From a virus: a stretch of DNA of 36,896 nucleotides. The notes under the pieces were generated by a model. It saw nothing but the letters and a program-made list of their open reading frames with translations, did no database searches and was not told where the DNA came from. The stretch lies in the IMG/VR virus record IMGVR_UViG_3300010354_000013, positions 1 through 36,896 of that record. The stretch is one strand, 5' to 3'. The translations under genes and the position numbers were made by a program. This document shows positions 2,594-36,896 of the stretch, piece by piece; within the stretch, counting starts at the first letter, position 1, and the number at the start of each line of letters is the position of its first letter.

Positions 2594-2970
2594 CCACACT
2601 ACGCGAAGCCGCTGAAGCGGCGCTGGAGGCGTTGGAATACCACGTTGAACAGACGCGGCCAATCGACAAAACAGGCGAGGCCATCGCCGCCCTCCGCGCC
2701 GCGCTGGCAGAGTCGGTGCAGGAGCCGGTGCAGGAGCCGGTGCATGAACACGAAAAATGGTGCGCTTCAGTAACACAGTTATTGCTGTGCGATCCACCGA
2801 GAAAAGCCCCGTGTAACTGCAAGCCCACCGCCCCGCCCCAGCGCAAGCCGCTGACGGATGAAGAGATAAAACGCATCGATGACAGCACACATTTCCACGA
2901 GTCGCCTGATTGGAGCCTGCGTTTTGCCCGCGCCATCGAGCGGGCGCATGGGATTGGGGAGAAGGAATGA
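2590..2970 (+). CDS. Hypothetical phage protein, tandem paralog 2
   Basis: A 126-residue protein that begins MTTLREAAEAALEALE and ends with RKPLTDEEIKRIDD then FARAIERAHG, mirroring its neighbour upstream. The middle holds a direct repeat of QEPV and a Cys-rich stretch (WCAS, LLCD, CNC) that the sister protein lacks. The first bases of the two genes are nearly identical, which supports recent duplication followed by divergence of the centre. Function unknown. Confidence 0.75.
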   Translation: MTTLREAAEAALEALEYHVEQTRPIDKTGEAIAALRAALAESVQEPVQEPVHEHEKWCASVTQLLLCDPPRKAPCNCKPTAPPQRKPLTDEEIKRIDDSTHFHESPDWSLRFARAIERAHGIGEKE

Positions 2971-3200
2971 ATCTGACCCCTTGGTTTTATCCGACCGAGA
3001 CGCCCCCGCGCGTCGGCGTCTACCAGCGCATCCGCTGGGGCGAGGACGTTCCCTTCTTCAGTTACTGGGACGGGCGCCAGTGGTGGCCGTCTGGCATGAC
3101 GCCTGACGGCGCGCTGCAAGCGTACACGGCCTACCTGTCCTACGGCGTGCCGCGCTGGGTCAGCCAAGTGCTGCAGTGGCGGGGGGTCAGCCGTGCTTAA
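2967..3200 (+). CDS. Small hypothetical protein, Trp/Tyr-rich
   Basis: A 77-residue protein starting MNLTPWFYPTETPPRVGVY, rich in Trp and Tyr (for example SYWDGRQWWPSG). The ATG overlaps the preceding stop and the end overlaps the helicase start by 8 bp. The pattern PWF-P---PP--GVY resembles short early proteins seen in many phages, without a known activity. Confidence 0.65.
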   Translation: MNLTPWFYPTETPPRVGVYQRIRWGEDVPFFSYWDGRQWWPSGMTPDGALQAYTAYLSYGVPRWVSQVLQWRGVSRA

Positions 3201-4491
3201 GCTGCGACCCTACCAAGAAGACGCCGCCGACTTCCTCTTCGAACATGACCGGGCGATGGTGCTGGCGCCCGTGGGCGCAGGCAAGACCGCCGCGACGCTC
3301 GTGGCAATGGACGCGGCAGTCAAGCAGATGAGCGCACGCTGGCTCGTCATCGCGCCCCTGCGCGTGGCCACGACCGTCTGGCCAGCCGAGGCCGCTCGCT
3401 GGGCGCCGGGGCTTACGGTGCGCGTGGCCGTCGGCACGCCCAGACAGCGCGTTGAAGCGTTTTACGACAGCAACGCCCACGTCGTCGTCATCAATTACGA
3501 CAACCTGCAATGGCTGGCCGAGCACGACCTGAGCGAATTCACTGGCGTCGTGTTCGACGAGTTGACGCGGCTCAAGAACCCATCAGGCAAGCGCTTCAAG
3601 GCGCTGGAGAAGGTCATCAAGGACATCGGCATCCGTTGGGGCCTGACCGGCAGCTTCACCAGCAACGGTCTGGAGGACGTCTTTGGTCAGGTGAAGATCA
3701 TCGACCAGAAGCTGCTGGGCCGCAGCAAGGGCGCGTTCCAGCAGCAGTATTTCTTCTCGTTCTTGCGCGGCAACTACGTCGAATACGAACCGCGCCGGGG
3801 CGCGCTGGAGCAGGTCATGGAGCGCATCAAGCCGGCCACCTATGTGCTGGAGCCGGGCGTCTACGCCGACACGCTGCCGCCGTTGCACACGGTGCCGGTC
3901 GAGGTCGAGATGGACATGACCGAGTACGAATTGATGCGCAAGAACTTTGTGTTGAAGTTTCCCGATGCCGAGGCCATCGCGCAGAACGCTGCCGTCGTCA
4001 CGCAGAAGTTGCAGCAGTTGAGCGCCGGGTTTATCTACACCAACGAAGACGTACGCTGGCTATCTCACCACAAGCTCGACCGCTTGGAGGAGATCATCGA
4101 CGAGAACCAGCGCGCGCCAACGATCATCTGGTATCAGTACATTGGCGAACTCATGGCGCTTAAGCGCCGGTTCCCGCACGCCGTGGACGTCAAGACCGAC
4201 GGCGCAATTGCGGATTGGAACGCGGGCAAGGTCGAGGTGCTGCTGGCGCATCCGGCTAGCGCAGGCCACGGACTTAACCTCCAGCACGGCGGCTGCCACA
4301 TGATCTGGCTGTCGTTGCCGTGGTCGCTGGAGCTTTACGAACAGGCCGTTGGGCGGTTGCACCGCTCCGGCCAGGCGCGTGACGTGTGGTGCTACGTCAT
4401 GCAGACCAAGGGCACCGTGGACGAACGGATACTGGCCGCGCTACGCGACAAGCGCAGCCTGTCTGACATAGCAATGGAAGCACTCAAATGA
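3193..4491 (+). CDS. SNF2-family DEAD/DEAH-type helicase / translocase
   Basis: A 432-residue protein with GTG start. Superfamily 2 motifs are in order: LRPYQEDAADFL (Q-like, residues 4-15), Walker A APVGAGKT (25-32), WLVIAPLRV (Ia), FDELTRLKN (motif II, Asp122-Glu123), LTGSFTSN (III, about 151-158), and the SNF2 hallmark EQAVGRLHRSGQ (383-394) with its arginine finger. It is short compared with cellular Swi2/Snf2 proteins and lacks added domains, as in other phage versions. Phages often carry such a helicase next to VRR-NUC and DUF2800 genes, probably to remodel forks or drive recombination. Confidence 0.92.
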   Translation: MLKLRPYQEDAADFLFEHDRAMVLAPVGAGKTAATLVAMDAAVKQMSARWLVIAPLRVATTVWPAEAARWAPGLTVRVAVGTPRQRVEAFYDSNAHVVVINYDNLQWLAEHDLSEFTGVVFDELTRLKNPSGKRFKALEKVIKDIGIRWGLTGSFTSNGLEDVFGQVKIIDQKLLGRSKGAFQQQYFFSFLRGNYVEYEPRRGALEQVMERIKPATYVLEPGVYADTLPPLHTVPVEVEMDMTEYELMRKNFVLKFPDAEAIAQNAAVVTQKLQQLSAGFIYTNEDVRWLSHHKLDRLEEIIDENQRAPTIIWYQYIGELMALKRRFPHAVDVKTDGAIADWNAGKVEVLLAHPASAGHGLNLQHGGCHMIWLSLPWSLELYEQAVGRLHRSGQARDVWCYVMQTKGTVDERILAALRDKRSLSDIAMEALK

Positions 4492-8238: not shown

Positions 8239-10028
8239 TTCGCCCCCTGTTTAGCTTTCCACTCCCGATACCGCCGTTCTTTGTCTGGGTCACTATACGG
8301 CCCAGCGCCCGCAGGCGCGGCGGCAGGCGCGGTTGCAGGTTGACGCGCAGGTGCAGCAAAACGCTTGAGTTCTGGCGACTCAAACAACGATTTGTTGCCT
8401 TCGCCGGTAGCCCAAGCGTCCTCCGCGCCGTCATAAGTGCCGTTGTCTTTCCACCACTTATCGTAAAAGTTGCGCTGCGCAATGTCACGTTTAAGTTGGG
8501 CACGGGCCACGGCGATGATGAACCGATTGGCGTCCGCAGTGTTGGTAAGTTGCGCGCCGGTCTGCGTGATGCGGTCCGCGTCGGCCTGCGTCTGAACGCC
8601 CTTCTGCTCAAGCTGTTTCTGCAACACGGCTTGGTTCATAGCCGCTGAAAACGCTTGCGCGTTGGTGGCGTACTCTTTCGCTTCCGGCACACCCAAGGCC
8701 GCGAGAAGAGACGCGCCGGCTTTCTGGGCTTCAGCACCAAAGCCTGTGCGGAAACCGGCGTCCAAAATACGCTCTTGCGTTTCCAGAGTCGGCAACGTGC
8801 GAGTCGCAAGCCGCGCGGCGTTTGACACGTCTTTGTACTGTTCAACCAACATCGTCCCCCGCGCCTCTTGTTCTTTGCGCGGTTGCGGCGGCAGTTTGAC
8901 TTCAACTTTAGCCGGCTCGACTTGCGTCGTCGCCTTCTTGATAGCCTCGTCGTACAGTTTGCGGTTCGGGTCAGTGGGCGGCAGCCGGTCACGCTCGTCG
9001 ATCAGACGCGACAACGCTGACATCGCTGCGGGGCGCTGCTTCAACTCGTTAAATTTAGCGAACCCGGCTTCCGTGCGCGGGATGCCCAGCGCGTCCATCA
9101 TTCGCAAATCGACGGGCACCTCGGCTGGTTTGGCGGCTTTCTCAACGTCTTCCGCTCGCTTGTACAGCCGTTCAATCGGCTTGTCCAACTCTTTAGCGCG
9201 CTCTTGGTTGGCCTTGAATCCAGACTGCCGCAGACGCTGTTGTTGCGCCTCAAGTCGTTGGGCCTCAGCGCGCAGGGCGGCAGCGTCGTCCTTGGCCGGT
9301 GCAGGTGTGGGCGCGGCAACCGGTGCAGGCGCGGGAGCTGCGGCTAGCTGATTGACGGGCGGCGCAGCGGGAGCTTGGGGCGCCAGCATATTGGCGCCAG
9401 CCGGTGCCATCGGCGCGGGCGGCGGCGCCACAGCAAACGACACCGCGCCGCCAGGGCTGACCTCGCCCGCGCCATAAGTTTCACGAGCGCCAAACGGCGG
9501 CGGTTCCGGCGCCGCCATAGGAGCGGGAGCCATAGGAGCGGGAGCCATAGGCGCGGGAGCCATAGGCGCGGGTGCCGCAACCATCGGTGTGGCCATCGGC
9601 GCCGGCGCTGGCGCTGGCGCGCCGCCGCCCATGATGCCTTGGTACTCGGCACCCGCCGCGCGCGACTGCGCAGTTTCCCGCGCTAGCGACAGCCAGTCCT
9701 TGGCGGCAGCGATAGCAGTCGGCTCGTTAGCCTCCAACGCGGCAGCGTAAAACTGCGTAGCGGACTGCATGTCCGACGGGTCCATGCCCGACTGCCGCAG
9801 CAGTTGCGCCAACTGGCCTCGGCGAGCGACTTGCGCTGCAGCGGCTTCGCGCTGCATACGCCGCTCTTCCATAGCCAGCTTACGCTCTTCCTGCGCCTGC
9901 TGGAACTCCAACGCCCGCTGCTGGAGCAGCATGTTGCGGGCGGCGGCTTCGCGGCCAGCCTCTTGGCCGGCCATGATCTGCGACCCGATGGTCGGGACGC
10001 GAGCGAGGATGCTAAAGTCAACCGCCAT
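8235..10028 (-). CDS. Ejection-type internal virion protein (middle of three)
   Basis: A 597-residue protein starting MAVDFSILARVPTIG with a GGGAGG site. Residues about 20-80 form a Gln/Arg/Glu coiled coil. Residues about 140-250 are a Pro/Ala/Met low-complexity linker with APAPM repeats. The rest is helical and charged, with a conserved-looking DAGFRTGFGAEAQKAG segment and a region rich in Ala, Gln and Asn (NAQAFSAAMNQAVLQKQLEQ). Long coiled coils and a flexible linker suit a protein that unfolds during ejection. Assignment rests on position and composition. Confidence 0.6.
   Translation of the reverse strand: MAVDFSILARVPTIGSQIMAGQEAGREAAARNMLLQQRALEFQQAQEERKLAMEERRMQREAAAAQVARRGQLAQLLRQSGMDPSDMQSATQFYAAALEANEPTAIAAAKDWLSLARETAQSRAAGAEYQGIMGGGAPAPAPAPMATPMVAAPAPMAPAPMAPAPMAPAPMAAPEPPPFGARETYGAGEVSPGGAVSFAVAPPPAPMAPAGANMLAPQAPAAPPVNQLAAAPAPAPVAAPTPAPAKDDAAALRAEAQRLEAQQQRLRQSGFKANQERAKELDKPIERLYKRAEDVEKAAKPAEVPVDLRMMDALGIPRTEAGFAKFNELKQRPAAMSALSRLIDERDRLPPTDPNRKLYDEAIKKATTQVEPAKVEVKLPPQPRKEQEARGTMLVEQYKDVSNAARLATRTLPTLETQERILDAGFRTGFGAEAQKAGASLLAALGVPEAKEYATNAQAFSAAMNQAVLQKQLEQKGVQTQADADRITQTGAQLTNTADANRFIIAVARAQLKRDIAQRNFYDKWWKDNGTYDGAEDAWATGEGNKSLFESPELKRFAAPARQPATAPAAAPAGAGPYSDPDKERRYREWKAKQGAK
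9514..9573 (-). repeat. Four tandem 15-bp units coding APAPM repeats
   Basis: Four nearly identical copies of a 15-bp unit start at 9514, 9529, 9544 and 9559. The length keeps the reading frame, so copy number can change without breaking the protein. Confidence 0.85.
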
Positions 10029-12102
10029 ACGGCCTCCCACCCAGATAGTTGATCACCGGCTGCGGGGCGAAATACTGGCCCCACGCTTTGCCGACGTCAC
10101 CATACGCCGACTGCCGCGCCGCCGCGCCGCTCAACAGCGCGTTGGCCGCCGTGCTGCCTTGTTGCGTCGCAAGGTTACTGACATTTGTTGCGTAAGTTTG
10201 CCCCAGCCCCGTAAGTTGTTGAGCCGTGGTGCCACCTACATTAGCTATACCCGCCAGCCGGTTGTACTCCTCGGCCTCACGCTGTCGCAGCGCGTTGTAC
10301 TCGGTGACCGCTCGGTTGTAAGCGTTGGTGTACTCTTGCGACGCGGCCTCTTGACCGAAGCGCGTCAACGCCTTGCCTGTTGCGCCAGACATCAGACCGC
10401 CCCGCGCCGCCGCGCTGCGCTCAAGCCCCTTCAACCCCTCGCTTAAGCGGAACGCATAACCCGGATCGCGGGTCAGGTCCACTTGGCCCGTAAACGCCGG
10501 CGGCATCGCGCCGGTCATAGTTTCTATTTTTGCAAGCGCATTTTTGCCAGCGGTGTACCAATCTTTTTGTCGCTCAACGCCTTCATCATATATTTTTTTC
10601 TGAAGGGCAATTGCACGGTCACTCGCCGCAGCCGCGATCTCTGCGGCTTCTTTAGATGCGCTAGTTACCTGCGATGCGCCGTAAAGCGACGCAAGGCTTG
10701 TAATTAACGGCGCCCAAAAACTACTGTCGGTTGCAGCAGGAAGCATAGATGAGGCTCCCGTTGCGGCGGCGGGCGCGGCGGCGGGGGCGGCGGCTGCCGC
10801 AGGCGCAGCAGCCGACACGGCAGGCGCGGCGGCTGCCGCTGCTGCAGGCGCGGTCATGGTGTTGACAAACGACGTCGGGTCGCCTAACGCAGGAGACGCG
10901 CCAGGGGTCAAGGCCAACCCCGCGCCCGTGCCAACAATCGGTGCAGTGCCAGCCGCGAGCCCCGCACCTGTACCGTAGACGGGCTGCGTGGCCAGACTGT
11001 AATCAATTGCGCCCGGCGCACCAGTAGTTGGTGGCGGGGGCACAAGCCCCGCGCTAGCCCCCGGCGCACTGGCGAGACTGTAATCGACCGCTGCAGGCGC
11101 AACAGGAGGCGCAACAGGAGGCGCAACAGGAGGCGCACTGGCGAGACTGTAATCGACCGCTGCAGGCGCAACAGGAGGCGCAACAGGAGGCGCACTGGCG
11201 AGACTGTAATCGACCGGCGGGGGCGGTAGAGTCAGCGCGTTGACCGCCGCAAGCTCTGCGGGCGTTGCTGGCGCCACCACGCCAGGGGCCATACCCTCTG
11301 CAACACCCGCGCCACCAGTTGCGTCGCCGACCAAAGCATTCTGGGCGTACCCACCGGCAGCACCCAGCAAAGCGCTCTTAGCTATATCGCCAATATCGCC
11401 GCCACCAAACGCTGCAACACCGCCACCGATAGCCGCGCCGCCCAACGCGCTAGCCGCTGCTGAACCCGCCGGCGCGCCAAGCGCCGCCCCCAAAGGCGCG
11501 CCGAAGCCAGCGGTCAAAACCGTGGTAATAATCGGGCCTATATCTTTAATAGCCTCGGTAAAAGTGCTCCAAGTGCTTTGCCCGTACTTAATAGACTTGG
11601 GCTCGTTGACAGGCTGTCCATTTTGCGTGATGGCGACATCGTAATAGTATCGCCGCCCCGGCGTACCCTTAACAGAGACGTCCAGCCCGGTGGCTTTTTG
11701 CTCCTTAACGTAGTTAACAAAATCTGGGTTGATAAACGAAATAGACGTTGCGTCTTCTCCCGTGCCTGTTGTAATAGTTTTTGTAGGCGTGATGCCCTGT
11801 GCTTGCGCAAGTTCTCCCCAAACGTCGTCGTAAAGAGACGTTGGCCGGTAAATAGACCCTTCGGAATCGTATTTAATTTCGGCAAGCCCAGCGCTCGCCG
11901 GATCATTCAAAGCAATTTGGTTTGGTTTGACAGTTGTGGTTACATAATAAAAACCTTCGGGATCGCGCTGAGAAATACGGTCTATTTGATCGGCGTTATA
12001 AACTAGACCAGTGTCTTTGTTATAGAACTGATTTGATCCTGGTATTTGTTCAACAGATAAGCGACCGTAAACCGGCGCTACAAACAGTTTGCTAGTGGCC
12101 AT
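10018..12102 (-). CDS. Ejection-type / DNA-transfer virion protein (first of three)
   Basis: A 694-residue protein. The N-terminal ~200 residues look folded (FYNKDTGLVYNADQIDRIS). Next is a Gly/Ala-rich, membrane-like stretch (about 200-270), then a repeat region with DYSLASAPPVAPP units, then Ala/Pro low complexity. The C-terminal ~230 residues are a conserved helical domain (QKKIYDEGVERQKDWYTAG, DPGYAFRLSEGLKGLERSA, SAAARGGLMSG, YNRLAGIANVGG). That domain is familiar from phage proteins annotated as DNA transfer or internal virion proteins; the wording DPGYxFRxxEG is a frequent signature. It probably acts in genome delivery. Confidence 0.7.
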   Translation of the reverse strand: MATSKLFVAPVYGRLSVEQIPGSNQFYNKDTGLVYNADQIDRISQRDPEGFYYVTTTVKPNQIALNDPASAGLAEIKYDSEGSIYRPTSLYDDVWGELAQAQGITPTKTITTGTGEDATSISFINPDFVNYVKEQKATGLDVSVKGTPGRRYYYDVAITQNGQPVNEPKSIKYGQSTWSTFTEAIKDIGPIITTVLTAGFGAPLGAALGAPAGSAAASALGGAAIGGGVAAFGGGDIGDIAKSALLGAAGGYAQNALVGDATGGAGVAEGMAPGVVAPATPAELAAVNALTLPPPPVDYSLASAPPVAPPVAPAAVDYSLASAPPVAPPVAPPVAPAAVDYSLASAPGASAGLVPPPPTTGAPGAIDYSLATQPVYGTGAGLAAGTAPIVGTGAGLALTPGASPALGDPTSFVNTMTAPAAAAAAAPAVSAAAPAAAAAPAAAPAAATGASSMLPAATDSSFWAPLITSLASLYGASQVTSASKEAAEIAAAASDRAIALQKKIYDEGVERQKDWYTAGKNALAKIETMTGAMPPAFTGQVDLTRDPGYAFRLSEGLKGLERSAAARGGLMSGATGKALTRFGQEAASQEYTNAYNRAVTEYNALRQREAEEYNRLAGIANVGGTTAQQLTGLGQTYATNVSNLATQQGSTAANALLSGAAARQSAYGDVGKAWGQYFAPQPVINYLGGRPYGG
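11063..11216 (-). repeat. Direct repeats coding DYSLASAPPVAPP units
   Basis: A 28-bp core recurs at 11063-11090, 11132-11159 and 11189-11216, separated by variable numbers of a 12-bp GGCGCAACAGGA unit (three and then two copies). A degenerate fourth core lies near 10,988. All lengths are in frame. The nested repeat structure suggests slippage or recombination expanding a linker. Confidence 0.85.
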
Positions 12103-17741: not shown

Positions 17742-19198
17742 TTACCCCCAGAGGCGGCAAGCCATTTGCGGACGAATGACGCTGTAGCCATACAGCACGT
17801 CAATCCGGCACGGCATACGGTCGTTGTTGATGTCGTACTGGCGCACGACACGCAGCGAGATGCCGTTGTGGACAGCGCGAGCGGCCATGTCAACGCCTTG
17901 CGGCAGCAGCAGGTCAGCGGTCGCAAACGTGATCGCGTCCTTGTGGTACACGAGGTTCTGCGGGTACGTCGTGCTGGCAGAGCCAATGAACGTCACCGTA
18001 GCCAAGTTTACCGGGAAGGCGTTGATCGTCGCCAGCGCGTGCGCAGAGGTGTACAACGACGGGAAGATTTCCACGTCGGTGAACTTGCTGGCAGCAGCGG
18101 TGTTCGCGGCGGTAACCACGAACTGCTGCAGCGCGCCAGTGGACTCACGGGTTTGCGGGTTCACCGCGTACACGTTGTCAATCGTGAACACGTCGCCGAC
18201 AGCCAAGGTGTTACCCGTGGTGCCGTTCAGCGTGATCTTCGATGCGCCTTGCGTGGAGTAAGTGCCATCAACCGTGATGGCGCCCGTGCGCGAGCCGGTG
18301 GTGAACTGCTTGATCGACTGAGACATGTTGATCTCTTCGTACCCAAGCACACCAGTACCCATCAAGCCGTTCTTGAACTGCTTGCTGATGGTGTCCGTGG
18401 GGTTGAAGAGGCCCTTCATGCCTTCGACCAGACCCGCGTTGGCAGCCGGGTTTACGGTTGCGTAACGCGGCGACATCACAGCGGCGTTCTCGTTGAGCTT
18501 CTGCTGGGCTTGCAGCAGAACCAGCGAGGTAGCCGGCGTGGTGCCGGGGGTGCCCACCGAGTTGCCGATGCTCTTGAAAGCGTTGGCGACGTCGGCGTCG
18601 ATGCTGGAGGCAAGCTGGCTGATACGAGGCTTCAGCACACGCTCTGCAAAGTCGTCCAACTGCATCGTCAATTCGGCGGACGTGAAGTTCACGCCGATAT
18701 GCTTTTGCGTGGAAACAGCCAGAGTGGTGAACTGCTCGTTGTCGTCCTGCACTTGCAGCGCAGCGCCGTCCGTGACCAGAGCGCGGTCAGGCAGACGGAT
18801 ACGGAGAGTCGAACCAATCTTCGCACCTTCGACAGCAAAACTGTCGTCGTACTGACGGTTTACGTTGCGGGTGAGCACAAGGTTGTTCTCTAGGCCAAAT
18901 GTTCGCCAAGGTTCGTTACGCCTTGACCGCCCTTTCGGGCTGCTGCATGTCACCATGCAGAGCAGACTATCTCTTCACCCTCTTACGAGGGGCTGTGCGC
19001 TTCCAGCCACTTGGCTGTACTCCCTTTCGGGATAGTCGTTACACCTTCCGGTTACCCGGCTTGGTTCGGTGTTGTCTTTACAGATGTCCACCGAATTCAC
19101 ACAGTTTTTTTCCTAGGGTTACCCCTAGGGGAGACCGATTAGTTAATCTCCAGAGCCTTCCTCGTGATCATGTCAATGGTAAGCAGGCTATTCGCCAT
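17742..19198 (-). CDS. Major capsid (coat) protein, P22 gp5-like; split gene join(17742..18894, 18895..19145 excised, 19146..19198)
   Basis: The coat gene starts at ATG 19198-19196, with an AAAGGA site. After 53 nt (MANSLLTIDMITRKALE plus two bases of the next codon) it is interrupted by a group I intron, and exon 2 begins at 18894. The spliced product is 401 residues. The junction reads ALEI-LENNLVLTRN-VNRQYDDSF, which aligns without a gap to the P22-coat pattern as I remember it (ITREALRVL, NRQYDDSFAK, GAKIGDTLRIRLP). The remainder shows the family's FTSAELTMQLDDF and a C-terminal domain. Unspliced RNA hits TAA after codon 19. A start at 18956 inside the intron would give a false N-terminus. 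The gene follows the scaffold gene, as expected. Confidence 0.9.
18895..19145 (-). ncRNA. Group I self-splicing intron (IA2-like, td-like core), no homing endonuclease
   Basis: A 251-nt intron within the coat gene, with the fold traced by eye. P1: exon GGAGAU (19151-19146) pairs with guide GUCUCC (19135-19130), giving U.G at the 5' splice site. P2: 19129-19112 with GUAA loop. P3: CUGUGUG (19104-19098) with CGCACAG (18999-18993). P4/P5: UUCGGUG (19095-19089) with CACCGAA (19071-19065). P6: CCGG-GUAA-CCGG (19059-19048). P7: GACUAU (19037-19032) with AUAGUC (18970-18965). P7.1 and P7.2 inserts mark class IA. P8: CCCUC-GUAA-GAGGG (18991-18978). P9: CUGCAUG-GUGA-CAUGCAG (18960-18943). P9.1 and P9.2 follow. 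It ends in G at 18895. The stretch AUAGUCUGCUCUGCAUGG matches the T4 td intron as I recall it. P10 is weak. Confidence 0.93.
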
Positions 19199-28132: not shown

Positions 28133-28604
28133 GGGTGGGTTTGGTTGACTGCAACGCCTGCTGCAGCGCGTGACTGACGTCTATCTGCTTGGGCTGGCTC
28201 GGCTCGACGTCGATGACGTCGGTTTGATTGACGCGGGCGGTGGCCTGCTCCAGCGCCAGGGTGATGCTGATCGCCTGCGCGCCTGTGACCTCGACCTTCT
28301 GCGCCGCCGTCCAGTCCGCACGGTGCTTCAGATACTCCATCGCCATCTTTGCGTCGCCTGCGAGCGCGGCGTCGCGCACAACGGTCGCCATCGCGGCCTC
28401 GGCATCCGCGTGCCCCTTGGCCACTGCAAACTCAGCGATGGGGTCCATCTGACACAGACGCCGGAACTCGACCGGCAACAGACCGGCGTTGAGCGCAAGT
28501 GCGTCACCCTTCAGCCCTAACTTCGCGCTGGCGTACAAGCGCTCCAACAACGCCTCGGTCGCCTTGACCTCGCGCACCGTGAGCGGCAACGATCTGAACG
28601 TCAT
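28101..28604 (-). CDS. terS: Terminase small subunit
   Basis: A 167-residue protein from ATG 28604 (an upstream TTG would add six residues). The N-terminal half is a HTH-like DNA-recognition region (RLYASAKLGLKGDALALNAGL), followed by helices with DAEAAMATVVRDAALAGDAKMAMEYL and a Gln-rich tail. The wording KGDALALNAGL--VEFRRLCQ-DP is common to phage small terminases. It recognises the packaging site and stimulates the large subunit, which overlaps it. No clear Shine-Dalgarno sequence is seen. Confidence 0.8.
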   Translation of the reverse strand: MTFRSLPLTVREVKATEALLERLYASAKLGLKGDALALNAGLLPVEFRRLCQMDPIAEFAVAKGHADAEAAMATVVRDAALAGDAKMAMEYLKHRADWTAAQKVEVTGAQAISITLALEQATARVNQTDVIDVEPSQPKQIDVSHALQQALQSTKPTHANDQVSARR

Positions 28605-28770
28605 GCGCGGATGGTAGCGCAATTTTGTTGGACGGTGTTGGGTTTAGCTGCGGGTAAAAAATTTTGTGCGACCCCTTCGTTTTTGTTGGCCCTTGCCGCC
28701 GGCCCTCCCCCTCCCCCCCCTCCGCTTCAAGCTCGCGGCCGCCGGCCGCCAGCTGCAGCGCTGCGCGCCT

Positions 28771-28883
28771 ATGGGCCGGATGGGCCATGGCCCAGCATGT
28801 CGGCATCATGCTGGCGCCCATGGGCCGGATGGGCCATGGCCCAGCATGTCGGCGTGCATCATGGGCCGGATGGGCCATGGCCC
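28771..28883 (+). repeat. Three direct repeats with GGGCCATGGCCC palindrome
   Basis: Copies start at 28771, 28820 and 28861 and share 23 bp: ATGGGCCGG followed by ATGGGCCATGGCCC. The first two share 34 bp. A fourth 23-bp copy is at 29306-29328 and a degenerate one at 28985-29002. The 12-bp palindrome ends each unit. CCAGCATG and CATGCTGG (28792-28814) form a hairpin between copies 1 and 2. Confidence 0.85.
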
Positions 28884-28956
28884 CGCTGGCGCGTGGTCAC
28901 GCGGCCGGGTGTCGCGGCGCCGGTCCAGGGTTTGGGGCGCCGGGGCTATCGACGCA

Positions 28957-29291
28957 TGCCTAAAAATGAGGCAGTTTTAGCGCGATGGGCTGGATGGGCC
29001 ATCGGCAGCGCAGGTCGTTCTAATATTACCTAATATCCTACTATCTTACTACACTATTATTTCAATTCGCCAATCATCTAGAAACCGATAGCCCATCCGG
29101 CCCATTCCCTCGATCGCGCCTTAGCCCCACTCATAAGCCCAGGGCCCATCCTCACTGTAGCCCATCCTTACGTTGTCCTTACACTTAAAAAATCCCACTG
29201 TCTACCATTCCCCTACACTGCCTCATTTTTAAGCAATGGGCCACGTTTATGGGCTATGCAAGGGCCACGAAAAATGCCTCATTTTTGAGCA
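28957..29291. repeat. Three copies of a conserved 17-mer, one inverted
   Basis: TGCCTCATTTTTxxGCA occurs at 29219-29235 (AA), at 29275-29291 (GA) and in reverse complement at 28957-28973 (AG). Only positions 13-14 vary. The copies flank the AT-rich island with opposite orientation, like iterons or protein-binding sites. Confidence 0.8.
29018..29078. other. AT-rich island
   Basis: About 60 bp dominated by A and T (for example CTAATATTACCTAATATCC) inside an otherwise very GC-rich genome. It sits between GGATGGGC words in direct orientation on the left and inverted on the right (29091, 29144, 29160). It is a candidate DNA-unwinding element. Confidence 0.6.
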
Positions 29292-29338
29292 CATAGCCCC
29301 GGCCGATGGGCCGGATGGGCCATGGCCCAAAGAATCAC

Positions 29339-29367
29339 TTGCACACTGCCCAACAATCCGTTACAGT
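29339..29367 (+). promoter_or_regulatory. Promoter of the rightward accessory operon
   Basis: TTGCAC (29339-29344), 17 bp, TACAGT (29362-29367), 40 bp before the first ATG. The -10 and the next base (TACAGTG) are the same as in the early promoter at 1684. Confidence 0.55.
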
Positions 29368-29390
29368 GCAATCACTGCATTGTCGCAGTG
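29364..29390. promoter_or_regulatory. Overlapping inverted repeats at the promoter, candidate operator
   Basis: Half-sites CAGTG (29364), CACTG (29373) and CAGTG (29386) form two dyads: CAGTG-CAAT-CACTG and CACTGC-ATTGTC-GCAGTG. They cover the -10 and start site, a repressor-site-like position. Confidence 0.5.
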
Positions 29391-29406
29391 CCTACCGGAG
29401 CTCACC

Positions 29407-29493
29407 ATGTCCGACATCCGCATTTTTGCCCTAGCCCTCGTCACGTTCGGCGCCTTTTGGGCCATCGTTTGGGTTCTGTTCGCTGCATTCTGA
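29407..29493 (+). CDS. Single-span membrane micropeptide
   Basis: A 28-residue peptide, MSDIRIF followed by a hydrophobic span to the C-terminus. It has GGAG at 29397-29400, with good spacing to ATG, directly downstream of the promoter. It is the first gene of the accessory operon. Function unknown. Confidence 0.55.
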   Translation: MSDIRIFALALVTFGAFWAIVWVLFAAF

Positions 29494-29526
29494 TTCCAAC
29501 AATCCACACACTTCTAGGGGTTCACA

Positions 29527-30249
29527 ATGGCCGGTTTCGTTTTCTATGATGGTCCGTCTCAAATCGACGGCGCGCCGATCATCGGCGTGGCCGTTCTCAA
29601 GTCCGAGAACGGCAAAACGGGGAACATGGTTCAGACGTATATCCTGCGCGCCGACATGGCGCCGCTATCCGCGATCGTCGACGGCGCGGACGTCTCAATT
29701 TGCGGGGACTGCGCGCATCGTGGGGATAAGTCCGCCGGCCGCGCGCGGACGTGTTACGTCGACGTTGCGAAGTCCGTCCAATCCGTTTTCGCAGCGTGGA
29801 CGCGCGGCGCTTATCCGATGCTCAGTCCGGCCGACGGCGCGCGCATGCTAGTCGGCCGCGCCGTCCGCATCGGATCCTATGGTGATCCGGCCGCGATACC
29901 GGCGCGCCATTGGCGCGCGCTGATTGCGCGCGCGGCCGGCCATACGGGTTACACCCATCAGTGGCGCCGGTACTTTGCGCGCGGACTGCGGACGATGGTT
30001 ATGGCGTCCGCCGATAGTGCGGCCGACCGCGACGTCGCGCGCGCCATGGGCTGGCGGACGTTCCGCGTCCGGAGCGCCGACGAGACGCTAGGCGCGCGCG
30101 AGATAGTTTGTCCCGCATCGGATGAAGGCGGGTTCAAACGCCAATGCATCAGCTGCAGGGCATGCGACGGCGCGCCGCGCGGCGCCACTCAAGCCAGTGT
30201 GGCCATCATCGTTCACGGCGCCATGGCGCGCCACTTCGCAACTGTCTGA
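29527..30249 (+). CDS. Conserved phage protein with cysteine clusters, unknown function
   Basis: A 240-residue protein. Cys clusters: CGDC (59-62) with Cys76 in RARTCYVDV, then VCPAS, and CISCRAC near the C-terminus, likely metal (zinc or iron-sulphur) ligands. Between them are AWTRGAYPM, GRAVRIGSYGDPAAIP, HTGYTHQWR, and ARAMGWRTFRVR, which I associate with a widely spread family of uncharacterised phage proteins. The regular order of Cys, aromatic and GYTHQW motifs suggests an enzyme. The gene is extremely rich in GC-palindromic words. Confidence 0.8.
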   Translation: MAGFVFYDGPSQIDGAPIIGVAVLKSENGKTGNMVQTYILRADMAPLSAIVDGADVSICGDCAHRGDKSAGRARTCYVDVAKSVQSVFAAWTRGAYPMLSPADGARMLVGRAVRIGSYGDPAAIPARHWRALIARAAGHTGYTHQWRRYFARGLRTMVMASADSAADRDVARAMGWRTFRVRSADETLGAREIVCPASDEGGFKRQCISCRACDGAPRGATQASVAIIVHGAMARHFATV

Positions 30250-31769: not shown

Positions 31770-31797
31770 GGCCCGCCACCCGGCGGGCCTTTTTTTT
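31770..31797 (+). terminator. Rho-independent terminator of the accessory operon
   Basis: GGCCCGCC, ACCC, GGCGGGCC form an 8-bp stem, followed by eight T (31790-31797). It acts on the plus strand; the opposite strand lacks a T-run. Confidence 0.92.
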
Positions 31798-34112
31798 CAC
31801 TTCACGCGGGCCAGGGGCGCCAGTGGTGATACGGTCGCGGCCGGCGCCGCCAGCATCCGGCGGATATCGGAGTGAGAACCCATCTTTTCCAGAATCTCGG
31901 CCGCCACGAGGATATGCACCCTCGAAGGGTGCTCGATCGTCTTCACGCGGCCGATATCAACCCATCCGGCCTCTCTGGCGGCGTGAAATAGCGTCATGGG
32001 GCTGCACCGTACCCCGGCCGGCATAAAGGCGCCCAAACGGTCGCATAGGGGCTGCCACGGCCCCATCACGGCGCCGCGCGAGAATTCCCCCTGCCGGTCC
32101 TGCATCATCTGGCAGATGATGGCCTCGGATGCCGACATGCCGGCCGACACCATCGCGGCCTTCGCCTCGGTCACCATCGGCGGCGCCGCAGGGTTCCAGG
32201 CGCTGACGTCACGCGCAGCCAGCCACCCGGCCACCGCATCGCGGCCGCCGGCCTCATACCATCCCCAAAGCGCCACCGCCTCGACCTCGGGCATCCGCCC
32301 GGCGTGCGACCATAGGACAAACCATCGGCGATCGTCGGACGGTAACGTAATGGCCATACGCTCGTTCGAGAACGCCACCACGCCGAGGCGGTTAGGCAGA
32401 TCAAACGGGTGCAAGCCCTTACGGTTGACCGATAACAGCTCCGGGGGCGCCGCGAGCAGGGGCTTAAGGCGGTTCTCCAGCCCGCGACGGTCCACAGCGT
32501 CGGCCTGGCGCAGCTCGTTGACGACCAGCACCTCGCACATGAGCGAGTAGCCCCAGCTACTGTTGATCTCCTCGTTGCGGACTAAGGCGATGTTTTCCCG
32601 CGACCGGCCGCCGATCGCGTACAGGAACGGCTCCCACAGCGTATCCTTGCCGGACCCCGGCGTCCCGCCGTGCAACACGCCGTGATTGATCTTCACCGCC
32701 GGATATTGCACCTTGAACGCCATCCAGTTCAGCAAGTGCTCGCGCTCGGCGTCATCGGGCACCATCCGCTGGACGTGGCGAAGCCAGGGGCGGACGTCCT
32801 GCCCAGGCGCGCCGGCCGGCCGGGCGTTGCGCCAGAGGTTAGCGAACACGTCGCCGGCGCGCGTCACCATCACGTCCTCGCCGGCCGCGTAGGTCACGCC
32901 CTGCAGCACCTGGGCGCCCATCGCCACGCGGTTCTCGTCGAAGCTGACCGACGCCTCGACCCGGCGGCGCTTGCCTGCGGCCGTCAGGTGGACTGACAGG
33001 CACGCGACGTGACGGAACACGGCGTTGAAGTTATTGCGCGAATACTGCTTACGCTCGATCAGGTCGAAGTACCCGTCATCGGCCAGCAGGTACGCAAAGC
33101 GCTCATACCACTGCGCCTGTTCGAGGCGCCCCGCCTCGCGGCGCTCCACCTCGGCGATCACGGCCTGAGCGTCGGCCGCCTGCTCAGGCGTCGGCGTCGG
33201 CAACGCCCCCTTCAGCAGCGCGCTGACCAACTCCTCGCGGATGCCGGACGTCTGCGACGGCCCGCCCTTCGAAGTGACCCACGTCAGGAAACGCTCACTG
33301 CCCCACTCGGTGCAATGGCCGTGCAGGCAGCAGAACGCGCGTAAGGCGGGGTTGTAACGGCCCTCGGGCGAGCCGTCGGTATGCTCCTCGGCGTTCGGGC
33401 ACAGCACGCCCGCCCAGCCCTCGCCGTTAGGCCGGCTATAAACCATCCCCTGCTCGTTCAGCCACGCGAAGACGTCATCGCCGCCGTCATCGCGCACGCG
33501 CATGGGGCGGGGGCCGTCGCCCTCCACCGGGCCGGGCGTCACGCCCAGCGCATCGCATATCTGCGCGAGGGTGAACGTGCGCTCGGGCGCGAACTCCACC
33601 AGACGCGACACGAACCCATCACGGTTCTGCTTCAAGTTGACCGACCCAGGCAGACGGAAGTTGCGGACCGGGTTGCAGGCACCTGGGTCCGTGTAACCGG
33701 CGTCGGCGATGGCCCTGATCGCAGCGGCAAACTCGCCCTTCCTCGGCTGCGCGTCGAACTCGAACGCATAGCCCCATTGGTAGTTCCCCGGCGACGTCTC
33801 CATCTTCCACGTCGGCTCCAGCGGCGGCGTCTTCGATTTGGTGCCGATGTCGTCCAGTACCATCACCAGCACGAATTCGCAGTTGGCCGCCGCCGCGCTC
33901 ACGCGCTCGGTCATGCGGTCGGTGATGAAAGCGGCAGTGTTCGCGTACCACGCCTGCCCCTCACGGCGTTTCTTTCCCGGCAAGAACGCCGGCCATGTGG
34001 CCTTGATCGCGCCATCGGCGTGGAAGCTGACGGGCTGCAGTGGCTTTTGCAACACGTAGAGAAGGGTCTCCCCTTCCGCTGCCAGCGATTCGAGGTAAGA
34101 TTCAAACGTCAA
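31797..34112 (-). CDS. Primase-helicase (AEP/RepB-type primase fused to SF3-like helicase)
   Basis: A 771-residue protein from a TTG start at 34112, chosen because AAGGAG sits 7 bp before it and the upstream frame is hairpin sequence. The N-terminal part has primase-like motifs: VMVLDDIG (Asp87, Asp88), SPGNYQW (107-113) and RNFRLPGSVNLK (150-161). A likely zinc region follows (LCPN, FCCLHGHC). The C-terminal ATPase has Walker A GGTPGSGKDT (482-491), EVLVVNEL in the Walker B place (about 527-534, with Asn-Glu instead of Asp-Glu) and FSNERMAITLPSDDRRW as sensor/arginine finger. It starts and unwinds forks for the family A polymerase encoded upstream. Confidence 0.88.
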   Translation of the reverse strand: MTFESYLESLAAEGETLLYVLQKPLQPVSFHADGAIKATWPAFLPGKKRREGQAWYANTAAFITDRMTERVSAAAANCEFVLVMVLDDIGTKSKTPPLEPTWKMETSPGNYQWGYAFEFDAQPRKGEFAAAIRAIADAGYTDPGACNPVRNFRLPGSVNLKQNRDGFVSRLVEFAPERTFTLAQICDALGVTPGPVEGDGPRPMRVRDDGGDDVFAWLNEQGMVYSRPNGEGWAGVLCPNAEEHTDGSPEGRYNPALRAFCCLHGHCTEWGSERFLTWVTSKGGPSQTSGIREELVSALLKGALPTPTPEQAADAQAVIAEVERREAGRLEQAQWYERFAYLLADDGYFDLIERKQYSRNNFNAVFRHVACLSVHLTAAGKRRRVEASVSFDENRVAMGAQVLQGVTYAAGEDVMVTRAGDVFANLWRNARPAGAPGQDVRPWLRHVQRMVPDDAEREHLLNWMAFKVQYPAVKINHGVLHGGTPGSGKDTLWEPFLYAIGGRSRENIALVRNEEINSSWGYSLMCEVLVVNELRQADAVDRRGLENRLKPLLAAPPELLSVNRKGLHPFDLPNRLGVVAFSNERMAITLPSDDRRWFVLWSHAGRMPEVEAVALWGWYEAGGRDAVAGWLAARDVSAWNPAAPPMVTEAKAAMVSAGMSASEAIICQMMQDRQGEFSRGAVMGPWQPLCDRLGAFMPAGVRCSPMTLFHAAREAGWVDIGRVKTIEHPSRVHILVAAEILEKMGSHSDIRRMLAAPAATVSPLAPLARVK

Positions 34113-34137
34113 TTGTTCTCTCCTTGGGTTGAGTGAA

Positions 34138-34165
34138 ACGCCCGGCGGCCCCGCCGGGCGTTTTT
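34138..34165. terminator. Hairpin between polymerase and primase genes
   Basis: ACGCCCGGCG, GCCC, CGCCGGGCGT is a 10-bp stem. Read on the plus strand it is followed by TTTT. Read leftward, in the operon's direction, it is followed by a short TTT, so it may only partly stop transcription between polymerase and primase. Confidence 0.65.
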
Positions 34166-34168
34166 GTT

Positions 34169-36130
34169 TCAGCCTTTGCCGTAGCGGTCCATCACCTTGA
34201 TGTCGATGTCCAGCGGCAGGCCCTGCGCCCACGCTGGCGCGGTCGTCATCACCTCGCGCATCAGTGACAGCACCCGGTCAGGTTCGGGAGTTTCCACCAC
34301 GATTTCGTCGTGAACGTGCAGAACCACGCCGTGCGGCTCCAGCGCCCGCAGCGCGTGACGCAGCACATCATTCGCTGAGGCTTGGGTGATGTTCTCGCAC
34401 GCAAGCCCACGCCAGAGGCGACCACGGGGCCATTCCTTCGCATCTGCTGCTGGCTTCCACGCCGCCTTGGCATAGGTGACGCCCTCGTCCTCCAATCGCG
34501 CAAAGGGATAGCACAGCACGCGACCGGAAGGAAGAGCGTACCAGAGGTGCTGCTTGTCGAACAGATAGACCACGCGGCCTGCGGGAAACTCCTTACCCGG
34601 ATGGCGCATGGCGCGTGTGTACGCGGCCTCCAGCGCCTGCCCGTGCGCCATCGCCCACGGATTCGCCCTGCGCCAGCCGTTGACGGCGCGGGCCACCTCG
34701 GCATCCGTCAGCCGCACGCCGTAGATGCGCCCGAACGTCTCGAACGCGCCAGGGCCGCCGAGGAACCCCAGCGCGAGTTCTTGGACTTTGCCAACCTGAC
34801 GCTGGTCGCCGGTGACGTCCTCGTACCGCACGCCGAACGTGGCGGCGGCGTTGACCTTGTACGGGTCCAGTTTGGAGCGGAACACGTCCAGCTTAGCCTC
34901 GCCGCTGGCGCAGTTGGACAGCCACGGGTGGACGCGGCCTTCGATAGCGGACCAGTCCGCAACGACAAAAGTGTGCCCTGCGCGAGGGACCAGCGCAGGC
35001 CGTAGCATACCCTTCAGGACGTCGGTCGTGCGCTTGCCGAACGCAGGAACGATCTGATGTCCGCGCACCATCGCATGGCGGACGGCTTGCGCGTCGCTGG
35101 CGCTCTTGCGGGGGAAATTGTGGACCTGCAACCCGTAGCTTGACGCGCGGCCAGTGGCAGAGCCGCCAGCAAAGACGAACGCCCCACGGACACGACTATC
35201 TTCCTCATCCGCAAGGTTGGCCATACGCTCGAACTTAGCGACGGACGAAGCCCACAGGTCGTCAGCCGCTTGGATGACTTCGGCCACGTCGGGCGGGACT
35301 TCTTCATGGTCTTCCTCCGCGAGCGCCAGCAGCGACGCCCGCACTGATTTGTCAATCGAATCCTTCGATTCGCCGTCCTTATGGACGACGCAGAGCTTGC
35401 GCGCCTGCGGCCCGAGGCGCTCCAGCACCCAGGCGCGCATACGCGGTGAGCGCACGCTCGGCACGGCCCCAGCCGTCACCTCGACGACACGGTGCTGGAT
35501 CTCTTGCAGTTCGACGTCGGCGTACCGCTGCGCGGCCTGCGCCAGCGGCACGTCCACCAGCACCCCACGGTCGTTGATGCGCTCGTTCGTGTGGTAGTCG
35601 GCCAGCTCGTCGTCCGACAGGGGCCGCATCGCCTTCGAGATAGCGCGCATGGCGCGCACGTCTTGGGCGCAGTACGCGAACAAGTCCTGCATGTCCTGCT
35701 CGGTGTGCTTGAACGGCGGGCAACAGCACTTGCGCACCAGCACGTTGCCACGGTGATCCTTGCGCATGTCAGCGCCCGCGAAGCGCCCCACGTCCTCCAA
35801 CGAGCCTGGGGCGCAGTTAGCGCGGGCCTGCGTCGCGGTGCAATAGAACTGCTCCAGCTTGGGCACCGGCACGCCGTGGTCAGGCCCCAGCACATACGAC
35901 CAGATCAGCCGCTCGAACGCGGCGTTGTGGGCGTAGATGCGGTCACCGGCCAGCACCGCACGGGTGACGGGCATGGGGAACTCTTGCCCCGGCGTCCAGA
36001 CACTCACCTCGCCGTCGTCCAGCGCCCACGCCAGGCACAGCACGCGGGTGGACGGATCGCGGGCGTAGTTGTACACGCCGCGAGCGGGCAGGTCGCACTC
36101 GCTGCGGGTTTCGAAGTCGATCCAGATCAC
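34169..36130 (-). CDS. DNA polymerase, family A, with 3'-5' exonuclease
   Basis: A 653-residue protein with GTG start. The exonuclease has WIDFET (Asp5, Glu7), YAHNAAFE (Asn69, Phe72) and YCAQD (Tyr153, Asp157). Polymerase motif A is VVADWSAIEGR (Asp392, Glu397, Arg399), B is RQVGKVQELALGFLGG (Arg444, Lys448) and C is HVHDE (Asp608). There is no 5' nuclease domain, as in T7-type enzymes. Motif A reads DWSAIEGR where the common form is DYSQIELR. It is the replicative polymerase, translationally coupled to the sigma-like gene by GTGA. Confidence 0.95.
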   Translation of the reverse strand: MIWIDFETRSECDLPARGVYNYARDPSTRVLCLAWALDDGEVSVWTPGQEFPMPVTRAVLAGDRIYAHNAAFERLIWSYVLGPDHGVPVPKLEQFYCTATQARANCAPGSLEDVGRFAGADMRKDHRGNVLVRKCCCPPFKHTEQDMQDLFAYCAQDVRAMRAISKAMRPLSDDELADYHTNERINDRGVLVDVPLAQAAQRYADVELQEIQHRVVEVTAGAVPSVRSPRMRAWVLERLGPQARKLCVVHKDGESKDSIDKSVRASLLALAEEDHEEVPPDVAEVIQAADDLWASSVAKFERMANLADEEDSRVRGAFVFAGGSATGRASSYGLQVHNFPRKSASDAQAVRHAMVRGHQIVPAFGKRTTDVLKGMLRPALVPRAGHTFVVADWSAIEGRVHPWLSNCASGEAKLDVFRSKLDPYKVNAAATFGVRYEDVTGDQRQVGKVQELALGFLGGPGAFETFGRIYGVRLTDAEVARAVNGWRRANPWAMAHGQALEAAYTRAMRHPGKEFPAGRVVYLFDKQHLWYALPSGRVLCYPFARLEDEGVTYAKAAWKPAADAKEWPRGRLWRGLACENITQASANDVLRHALRALEPHGVVLHVHDEIVVETPEPDRVLSLMREVMTTAPAWAQGLPLDIDIKVMDRYGKG

Positions 36131-36588
36131 AACTGATTCCGCTTCGCAAACTCACGGTTTTCTTGCTGTAGTCGGCACCAAGCGCGCCATGTCAGCACGT
36201 CCCCCTCATAAAAGCCAGAAATGTCAGGCCGTTTACCAATCACATCGTTTGCTTTTAAGCGCAACAGCCGCAACGTGCGGTGGAGCAGTTGGTGTACCCG
36301 CGATCTAGTGATGCTCAAGCAAGCACCTACTTCGCTCTCTGTCATGCCTTGCACACAAATGCAATGCAATATCAGACGATCTCTTGCGGTTAATTCCGTG
36401 CAGGCAAGAAGTTTGCCTAGCAACTCGGCATTTTCAACGCGCTCATCCAACCGATCTTCATACTCAAACGACCACTTTTCTGAGGGTGGTTCGTCGTCTG
36501 GTTCTTTATGGCGGCTGTACCAAATATCCCTTACTTCAGACGACAGCGTTGCTACGCCGATCTTGCCGTAATACGCTCTGTTGCTCAT
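36127..36588 (-). CDS. Sigma-factor-like protein (region 4 type HTH)
   Basis: A 153-residue protein starting MSNRAYYGKIGVATL. Residues 64-112 (LTARDRLILHCICVQGM, ESEVGACLSITRSRVHQ, LLHRTLRLLR) form the helix-turn-helix of sigma70 region 4. No region 2 is visible, so it is a partial sigma or region-4-like regulator. It probably switches transcription from early to late genes; the virion operon shows no plain sigma70 promoter. It lies 3 bp after a terminator, with no obvious Shine-Dalgarno sequence, and overlaps the polymerase by GTGA. Confidence 0.78.
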   Translation of the reverse strand: MSNRAYYGKIGVATLSSEVRDIWYSRHKEPDDEPPSEKWSFEYEDRLDERVENAELLGKLLACTELTARDRLILHCICVQGMTESEVGACLSITRSRVHQLLHRTLRLLRLKANDVIGKRPDISGFYEGDVLTWRAWCRLQQENREFAKRNQL

Positions 36589-36591
36589 AGT

Positions 36592-36613
36592 AAAAGACGG
36601 GGCCGAAGCCCCG
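36592..36613 (-). terminator. Intrinsic terminator with UUCG loop inside the replication operon
   Basis: On the minus strand CGGGGC, TTCG, GCCCCG (36613-36598) is followed by TCTTTT. It lies between the putative ssDNA-binding gene and the sigma-like gene, so it may lower expression of the sigma-polymerase-primase part. Confidence 0.8.
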
Positions 36614-36622
36614 CCCCCCTGC

Positions 36623-36896
36623 TTACGCAGCGACCCGACGGCGACGCTTCGGCTCGTCGGCTGGCGCCTCATCGGCGTCAGCGTCGGCCTCGGCAGGACC
36701 GTCGAGCGTCACCCACTCCTTGACTTGGAAGTCAGGGGTGTAGATGGTGCCGTAGCTCTTGTGCTTGTACGACGCCTTGCCCAGCGTCACCAGCGGCACG
36801 ATGCGCGACTGATCCTTCTCAGCCTGCTCGGCCACGGCCAGCGCCAACGCCTTCACGGCGTTCTTGCCACCGACGGAGGTCGTCGTGAAACGCGCC
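36623..36896 (-). CDS. Putative ssDNA-binding / recombination accessory protein (C-terminal part)
   Basis: Continuation of the gene that starts at 497 on the minus strand. The bases 36774-36896 duplicate 1-123, so the frame joins exactly. This part shows VKALALAVAEQAEKDQSR, a beta segment with KASYKHKSYGTIYTPDFQ and VKEWVTLDG, an acidic ADADADEAPADE run and an Arg-rich end. An internal ATG at 36856 is not the true start. Confidence 0.82.
   Translation of the reverse strand, partial: ARFTTTSVGGKNAVKALALAVAEQAEKDQSRIVPLVTLGKASYKHKSYGTIYTPDFQVKEWVTLDGPAEADADADEAPADEPKRRRRVAA
36774..36896. repeat. Right copy of the 123-bp terminal direct repeat
   Basis: Identical to bases 1-123, as described at the left end; it marks the circle junction. 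Confidence 0.95.

Follow-up and report, generated by a model that had tools for sequence, protein, structure and literature searches.

A putative iteron-type replication origin and its probable reading loop in a group of uncultivated podovirus-like phages

Genome and gene setting

The stretch of DNA analysed here (the window) spans an entire virus record of 36,896 bases, in which positions 1-123 and 36774-36896 are identical; the genome is therefore very probably complete and circularly assembled, with a length of about 36,773 bp. Genes for a P22-like coat protein, the portal, TerL and a TerS-like protein lie on the minus strand, and a DUF5906 primase-helicase, a family-A DNA polymerase, an exonuclease and an SNF2-type helicase are also encoded. 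TerS was named by its place before TerL and by the gene order in relatives, and family searches gave it no match of its own. A group I intron (Rfam RF00028, 64.3 bits) was found at 18943-19155 on the minus strand, just upstream of the P22-like coat ORF, the start of which it slightly overlaps. Upstream of the polymerase gene, positions 36127-36672 of the minus strand encode a small protein that contains a sigma-70 region 4 domain and may act as a phage transcription factor. A perfect 57/69-bp tandem repeat (11063-11216) lies inside ORF 10018-12102, the C-terminal part of which matches a DNA-ejection protein family.

The region of interest is a gap of about 550 bp, flanked by TerS (minus strand, start 28622) and by the rightward early genes, the first of which encodes a DUF7227-like protein at 29527. 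The original prediction had described the gap as a gene-free region between divergent operons, and indeed only mechanical ORFs cross it. An Rfam scan of the gap gave zero family matches, and a similarity search of its DNA against deposited phages found none. The putative origin ends at 29328 and the primase-helicase gene at 31797, a distance of about 2.5 kb that is occupied by early ORFs.

Repeats and AT-rich island

It was originally reported that GGATGGGC occurs in direct orientation on the left of the gap and inverted on the right. All eight copies were recovered at the positions and on the strands given (plus strand: 28778, 28827, 28868, 28992 and 29313; minus strand: 29091, 29144 and 29160); they lie within 28778-29320 and none is found elsewhere in the 36.9-kb window. 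The chance expectation for the whole window is 1.86, and none of 100 shuffles reached eight. Among the 8-mers of the genome, GGATGGGC shows the strongest local clustering, with eight copies in 560 bp against five for the next unrelated word; when one mismatch is allowed, the window shows no overall excess (43 vs 41 expected). The true repeat unit is smaller and more numerous, namely ATGGGC, of which 17 copies (12 plus, 5 minus) are present in 28601-29530, largely as pairs exactly 9 bp apart. Most copies of GGATGGGC are the second of two such units, a point missed by the original prediction. The AT-rich tract that it placed between the direct and the inverted repeats does hold the AT-richest 50-mer of the genome (29018-29067, 78% AT). 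The features of the region are as follows.

28640-28720, minus strand: A-rich plus GC-rich block by the TerS start, conserved across relatives
28771-28785, plus strand: iteron pair 1, ATGGGCCGGATGGGC (units 28771/28780, 9 bp apart)
28820-28834, plus strand: iteron pair 2 (units 28820/28829)
28861-28875, plus strand: iteron pair 3 (units 28861/28870)
28957-28973, plus strand: TGCCT-N7-AGGCA palindrome, possible operator (further copies at 29219-29235 and 29275-29291)
28985-28999, plus strand: iteron pair 4, directly left of the AT island (units 28985/28994)
29015-29085, no strand: AT-rich island, the genome's AT-richest stretch and a putative DNA-unwinding element, at the same place in relatives
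29091-29105, minus strand: inverted iteron pair 5, directly right of the AT island (units 29091/29100), position kept in relatives
29144-29167, minus strand: two more inverted iterons (29144, 29160)
29236-29254, plus strand: two weaker direct ATGGGC units (29236, 29249)
29306-29320, plus strand: iteron pair 6, beside the presumed early promoter (units 29306/29315)

The early promoter was placed by eye (TTGCAC near 29339 and TTACAG near 29361) and was not found there by a promoter scan. The block at 28640-28720 is a possible late promoter or packaging site. The 17-mers of the form TGCCT-N7-AGGCA, which occur with at most one mismatch in 18 of 169 related loci as compared with 4 for a control motif, are possibly the operators of some regulator.

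An above-chance array of short direct repeats and an adjacent AT-rich element, two features of an iteron-type theta origin, are present in the gap. A turn in GC skew is a supporting sign of an origin, though not a strictly defining one in small phages. The cumulative skew proposed as a check has no turning point here (the detrended extremes are at 1337 and 23093) and therefore gives the origin reading no support; the skew of this genome probably follows gene direction. No DnaA box (TTATCCACA) is present in the origin gap of the window.

Shared layout and divergent words in relatives

To gather relatives, TerL, the DUF7227-like protein and the C-termini of five primases were used as queries, which gave about 400 loci; after duplicate removal, 169 of these contained the gap as well as the primase C-terminus. 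The gene order terS, gap, early genes, primase recurs among them, and most of the 169 share a layout of 9-bp-spaced iterons, an AT island and opposite-strand iterons to its right. The island lies at a median of 442 bp from terS (interquartile range 391-508), and 9 bp is by far the commonest iteron spacing (262 of 624), with up to 10-14 iterons per locus. When the words found without the geometry rule were counted, 520 iterons left of the island were on the plus and 193 on the minus strand, as against 44 and 132 just to its right; some word classes are mirror-reversed in orientation. A perfect DnaA box was found in 35 of the 169 loci (1 after shuffling), at a near-fixed place, most frequently some 100-125 bp to the left of the island.

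The iteron word itself varies between lineages, and 27 classes, set partly by a geometry rule and without regard to the protein, were assigned over 135 loci. The original prediction had counted absence of the repeats from relatives with the same replication genes as evidence against an origin; such absence is true of the exact word and false of the architecture. The deposited phage MW202483 (L408), from outside the set used, has the same layout with yet another word, TTGGTAGTG.

Other repeats were also noted in the gaps of relatives. Inverted CACTAAC/GTTAGTG arrays, which differ from the iteron word and lie left of the iterons in one clade (e.g. L061, L251, L223, L229), were first picked as iterons by the word finder; they were rejected as lying far left of the island, and the loci concerned were left out of the word classes. 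GC-rich minisatellites with a period of 6-8 bp or 17 bp occur in the origin gap of, for example, L141, L146, L142 and L050, mostly on the side of the iterons that faces terS. In MW202483, a homing endonuclease gene (2645-3091) and a TGTAAAC repeat array (about 3220-3590) lie between terS and the iterons.

The primase-helicase and its C-terminal wing

Three features of the proposed initiator are relevant here.

31797-34232, minus strand: DUF5906 primase-helicase, the proposed initiator, from family, sequence and structure matches
31800-32159, minus strand: C-terminal winged-helix domain, residues 692-811, from an AlphaFold2 prediction
31920-31946, minus strand: codons of the covarying wing segment, residues 763-771 (VKTIEHPSR), from covariation and the AlphaFold2 model

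The protein has an SF3 helicase with a D5/DUF5906-type core, which matches the SF3 primase-helicases of phage NrS-1, SaPI5 and poxviruses. Its C-terminal half was matched to the NrS-1 phage polymerase both in structure (6k9c, E 5.8e-16) and in sequence (E 3.4e-12), and the SaPI5 primase-helicase (7ola) is also among the structural matches of this half. For the N-terminus, only a weak RepB_primase match was obtained (E 3e-4, below the Pfam cut-off). In the AlphaFold2 model, the winged helix has a strand at 757-763, a loop at 764-771 and a strand at 772-777, with a pLDDT of 93-95 for the block, so that residues 763-771 are predicted to sit in the wing between two strands. The isolated domain matched many winged-helix chains (best Foldseek E 0.03, best VIA Z 6.6), too weakly for its closest solved relative to be named; the P4 origin-binding domain, expected as a fold match, was absent among the matches listed.

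Covariation of the iteron word with the wing

Among pairs of proteins with 90-97% identical cores, which are not independent of one another, residues 763-771 had a mismatch of 0.07 when the iteron word was the same (n=129) and 0.41 when it differed (n=80), whereas the rest of residues 660-800 gave 0.07 in both cases. The windows starting at 762-764 ranked first of 365 along the primase-helicase, with an excess of 0.30 against a median of 0.004, and none of 2000 shuffles of word labels within clades reached the observed wing value. After collapsing by clade, the effect was clear in clades 11, 18, 22 and 24 and weak or lacking in others. Phages with the word GAGGGGACA, for example, have the wing VRCPEHPVK, and those with GAGGGGTAT have VKANDLPQK or IKTADIAQK, while their helicase cores are otherwise about 93-98% identical. 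Across distant clades, the wing was no more than the best of three predictors of the word, which it gave correctly in 59 of 77 cases, the rest of the C-terminus in 53, the core in 45 and chance in 5.

The correspondence is not complete. Wings vary inside some same-word groups (GAGGGGTAT, 0.30; GTGGGTCAT, 0.44) and are nearly equal in some pairs with different words (GTGGCAA/GTGGCAG and ATGGGCA/ATGGGCAG). One locus, L030, is a clear exception, as it combines a AATGGGTCA word and origin with a GTGGGGTA-type wing and primase, and is either a natural mosaic or a chimeric contig.

Two other proteins were considered as readers of the iterons and are disfavoured. The best window of TerS reached 0.14, as compared with 0.30 for the primase-helicase wing. 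For the DUF7227-like protein, the gene of which lies between wing and origin, the values were 0.120 for the same word and 0.147 for different words where the wing gave 0.133 and 0.583, from only 20 and 8 pairs. Among the three proteins compared, the primase-helicase alone tracks the word strongly, chiefly at residues 763-771, and these residues are probably the part that reads the iterons. A limited literature search for covariation of a phage initiator with its iterons through a winged helix returned nothing.

Alternative readings

The repeats might instead be operators through which the primase-helicase or another early protein controls the divergent TerS and early promoters, with replication starting elsewhere. 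The gap does separate divergent operons, iteron pair 6 directly adjoins the presumed early promoter, and the TGCCT-N7-AGGCA palindromes resemble a separate operator set. However, the iterons are ordered around a near-fixed AT island and not around promoters, are as numerous per locus as given above, and track a helicase-primase domain rather than a dedicated regulator; we consider this reading unlikely. Less probable still is a role in packaging, with TerS binding the repeats as pac/cos sites. Their position immediately upstream of terS fits such a role, as does the conserved block beside the TerS start, but this block is separate from the iterons and TerS follows the word less closely than the wing does.

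Equally improbable is that the association of word and wing reflects linkage, the 3' end of the primase gene and the origin recombining as a unit without any binding. In favour of this, the two lie about 2.5 kb apart, and L064 and L067 have a common C-terminal domain and word with cores that are only 68% identical. Against it, covariation is confined to about ten residues and spares those that flank them in the domain, and it is slight in the DUF7227-like protein, the gene of which lies between wing and origin. A partition or centromere-like site, also raised in the original prediction, gains nothing and is very improbable: repeat arrays by an AT tract can be centromeres, but the covarying partner is a primase-helicase, and no ParA/ParB family appeared among the ORFs scanned, which include part of the small ORFs.

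Proposed mechanism

The region 28771-29328 is thus very probably the site where copying of the phage DNA starts, as far as can be read from sequence. The original proposal of a replication origin draws support from the conserved geometry, the word-wing covariation, the winged-helix model and, in part of the clade, the DnaA box. We favour with high confidence the reading of an origin bound by the primase-helicase wing, with putative two-sided loading, melting and priming. We infer that the DUF5906 primase-helicase would use the loop in the wing of its C-terminal winged helix to bind the 9-bp-spaced ATGGGC iterons. As these iterons point towards each other over the AT-rich island, binding would take place to its left and to its right. 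Once assembled, the SF3 helicase would melt the island, load and unwind; the N-terminal primase domain would prime, and the phage family-A polymerase would extend. Assembly, melting, two-sided loading and priming are modelled on P4 alpha, SaPI Rep and Cch2 (PMC4234260, PMC7581432). The rightmost iteron pair, beside the presumed early promoter, may also serve autoregulation.

It is rare for the origin of an uncultivated phage to be located; in this case, the repeats point to an origin and to its likely reader. Variation across more than 100 relatives pinpoints the probable reading loop, the specificity of which could therefore be predicted and tested from sequence. The frequent change of such an essential contact also becomes a testable question. 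We tentatively suggest, with rather more doubt than conviction, a natural recognition code in which a short hypervariable wing and the iterons change their spelling in step. One phage group would then contain dozens of replicons that exclude one another, perhaps under diversifying pressure. Satellites that parasitise origins, nucleases directed at origins or superinfecting relatives might exert such pressure.

Comparison with known systems

In the lambda origin, iterons by an AT-rich tract are bound by the O protein, and specificity differs between relatives. There, the host helicase is recruited through P, whereas initiator, helicase and primase would here be one phage protein. The closest solved structure of the C-terminal half is the NrS-1 phage polymerase (primase, polymerase and helicase; 6k9c), the Tail domain of which was described as a novel fold; an iteron origin is not reported for it in the parts of the source drawn on here (PMC7102993), while the window phage has iterons.

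The alpha protein of satellite phage P4 unites a primase, an SF3 helicase and a C-terminal winged-helix origin-binding domain that reads repeats (as summarised in PMC4234260), and the present protein is similar in having a primase, an SF3 helicase and a predicted C-terminal winged helix. The P4 primase is of the Toprim type according to the same summary (PMC4234260), whereas the N-terminus here weakly matches a RepB-type primase. In SaPI Rep and SCCmec Cch2, an SF3 (D5-type) helicase-initiator binds short iterons by its C-terminal domain (PMC7581432); the combination of helicase-initiator and iterons is the same here, with binding by the C-terminal domain putative. Unlike SaPI and SCCmec, the system here belongs to a podovirus-like phage that is complete and encodes a family-A polymerase of its own, and 27 iteron word classes occur inside one phage group. 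The SaPI origin lies directly downstream of rep, whereas early genes intervene here.

In the RepA_N/ori modules of PLE, the Vibrio cholerae phage satellites, the DNA-binding domain covaries with the origin and modules are swapped (PMC8263062). Covariation between otherwise similar elements is common to both systems, but RepA_N is a different initiator and covaries as a whole domain, whereas the change here is concentrated in a 9-residue wing. Satellites that replicate at the cost of the phage, and nucleases that cut origins by copying initiator specificity, are documented (PMC8263062), and by analogy such elements could select for re-spelling of the word. The best reading by comparison is that this putative origin works in the manner of the P4 alpha or SaPI Rep origins, except that the recognition loop is strongly diversified. 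Self-loading primase-helicases that read iteron origins are already known; what appears to be new is that changes in specificity are concentrated in a single wing loop, and that the setting is a large group of uncultivated podovirus-like phages.
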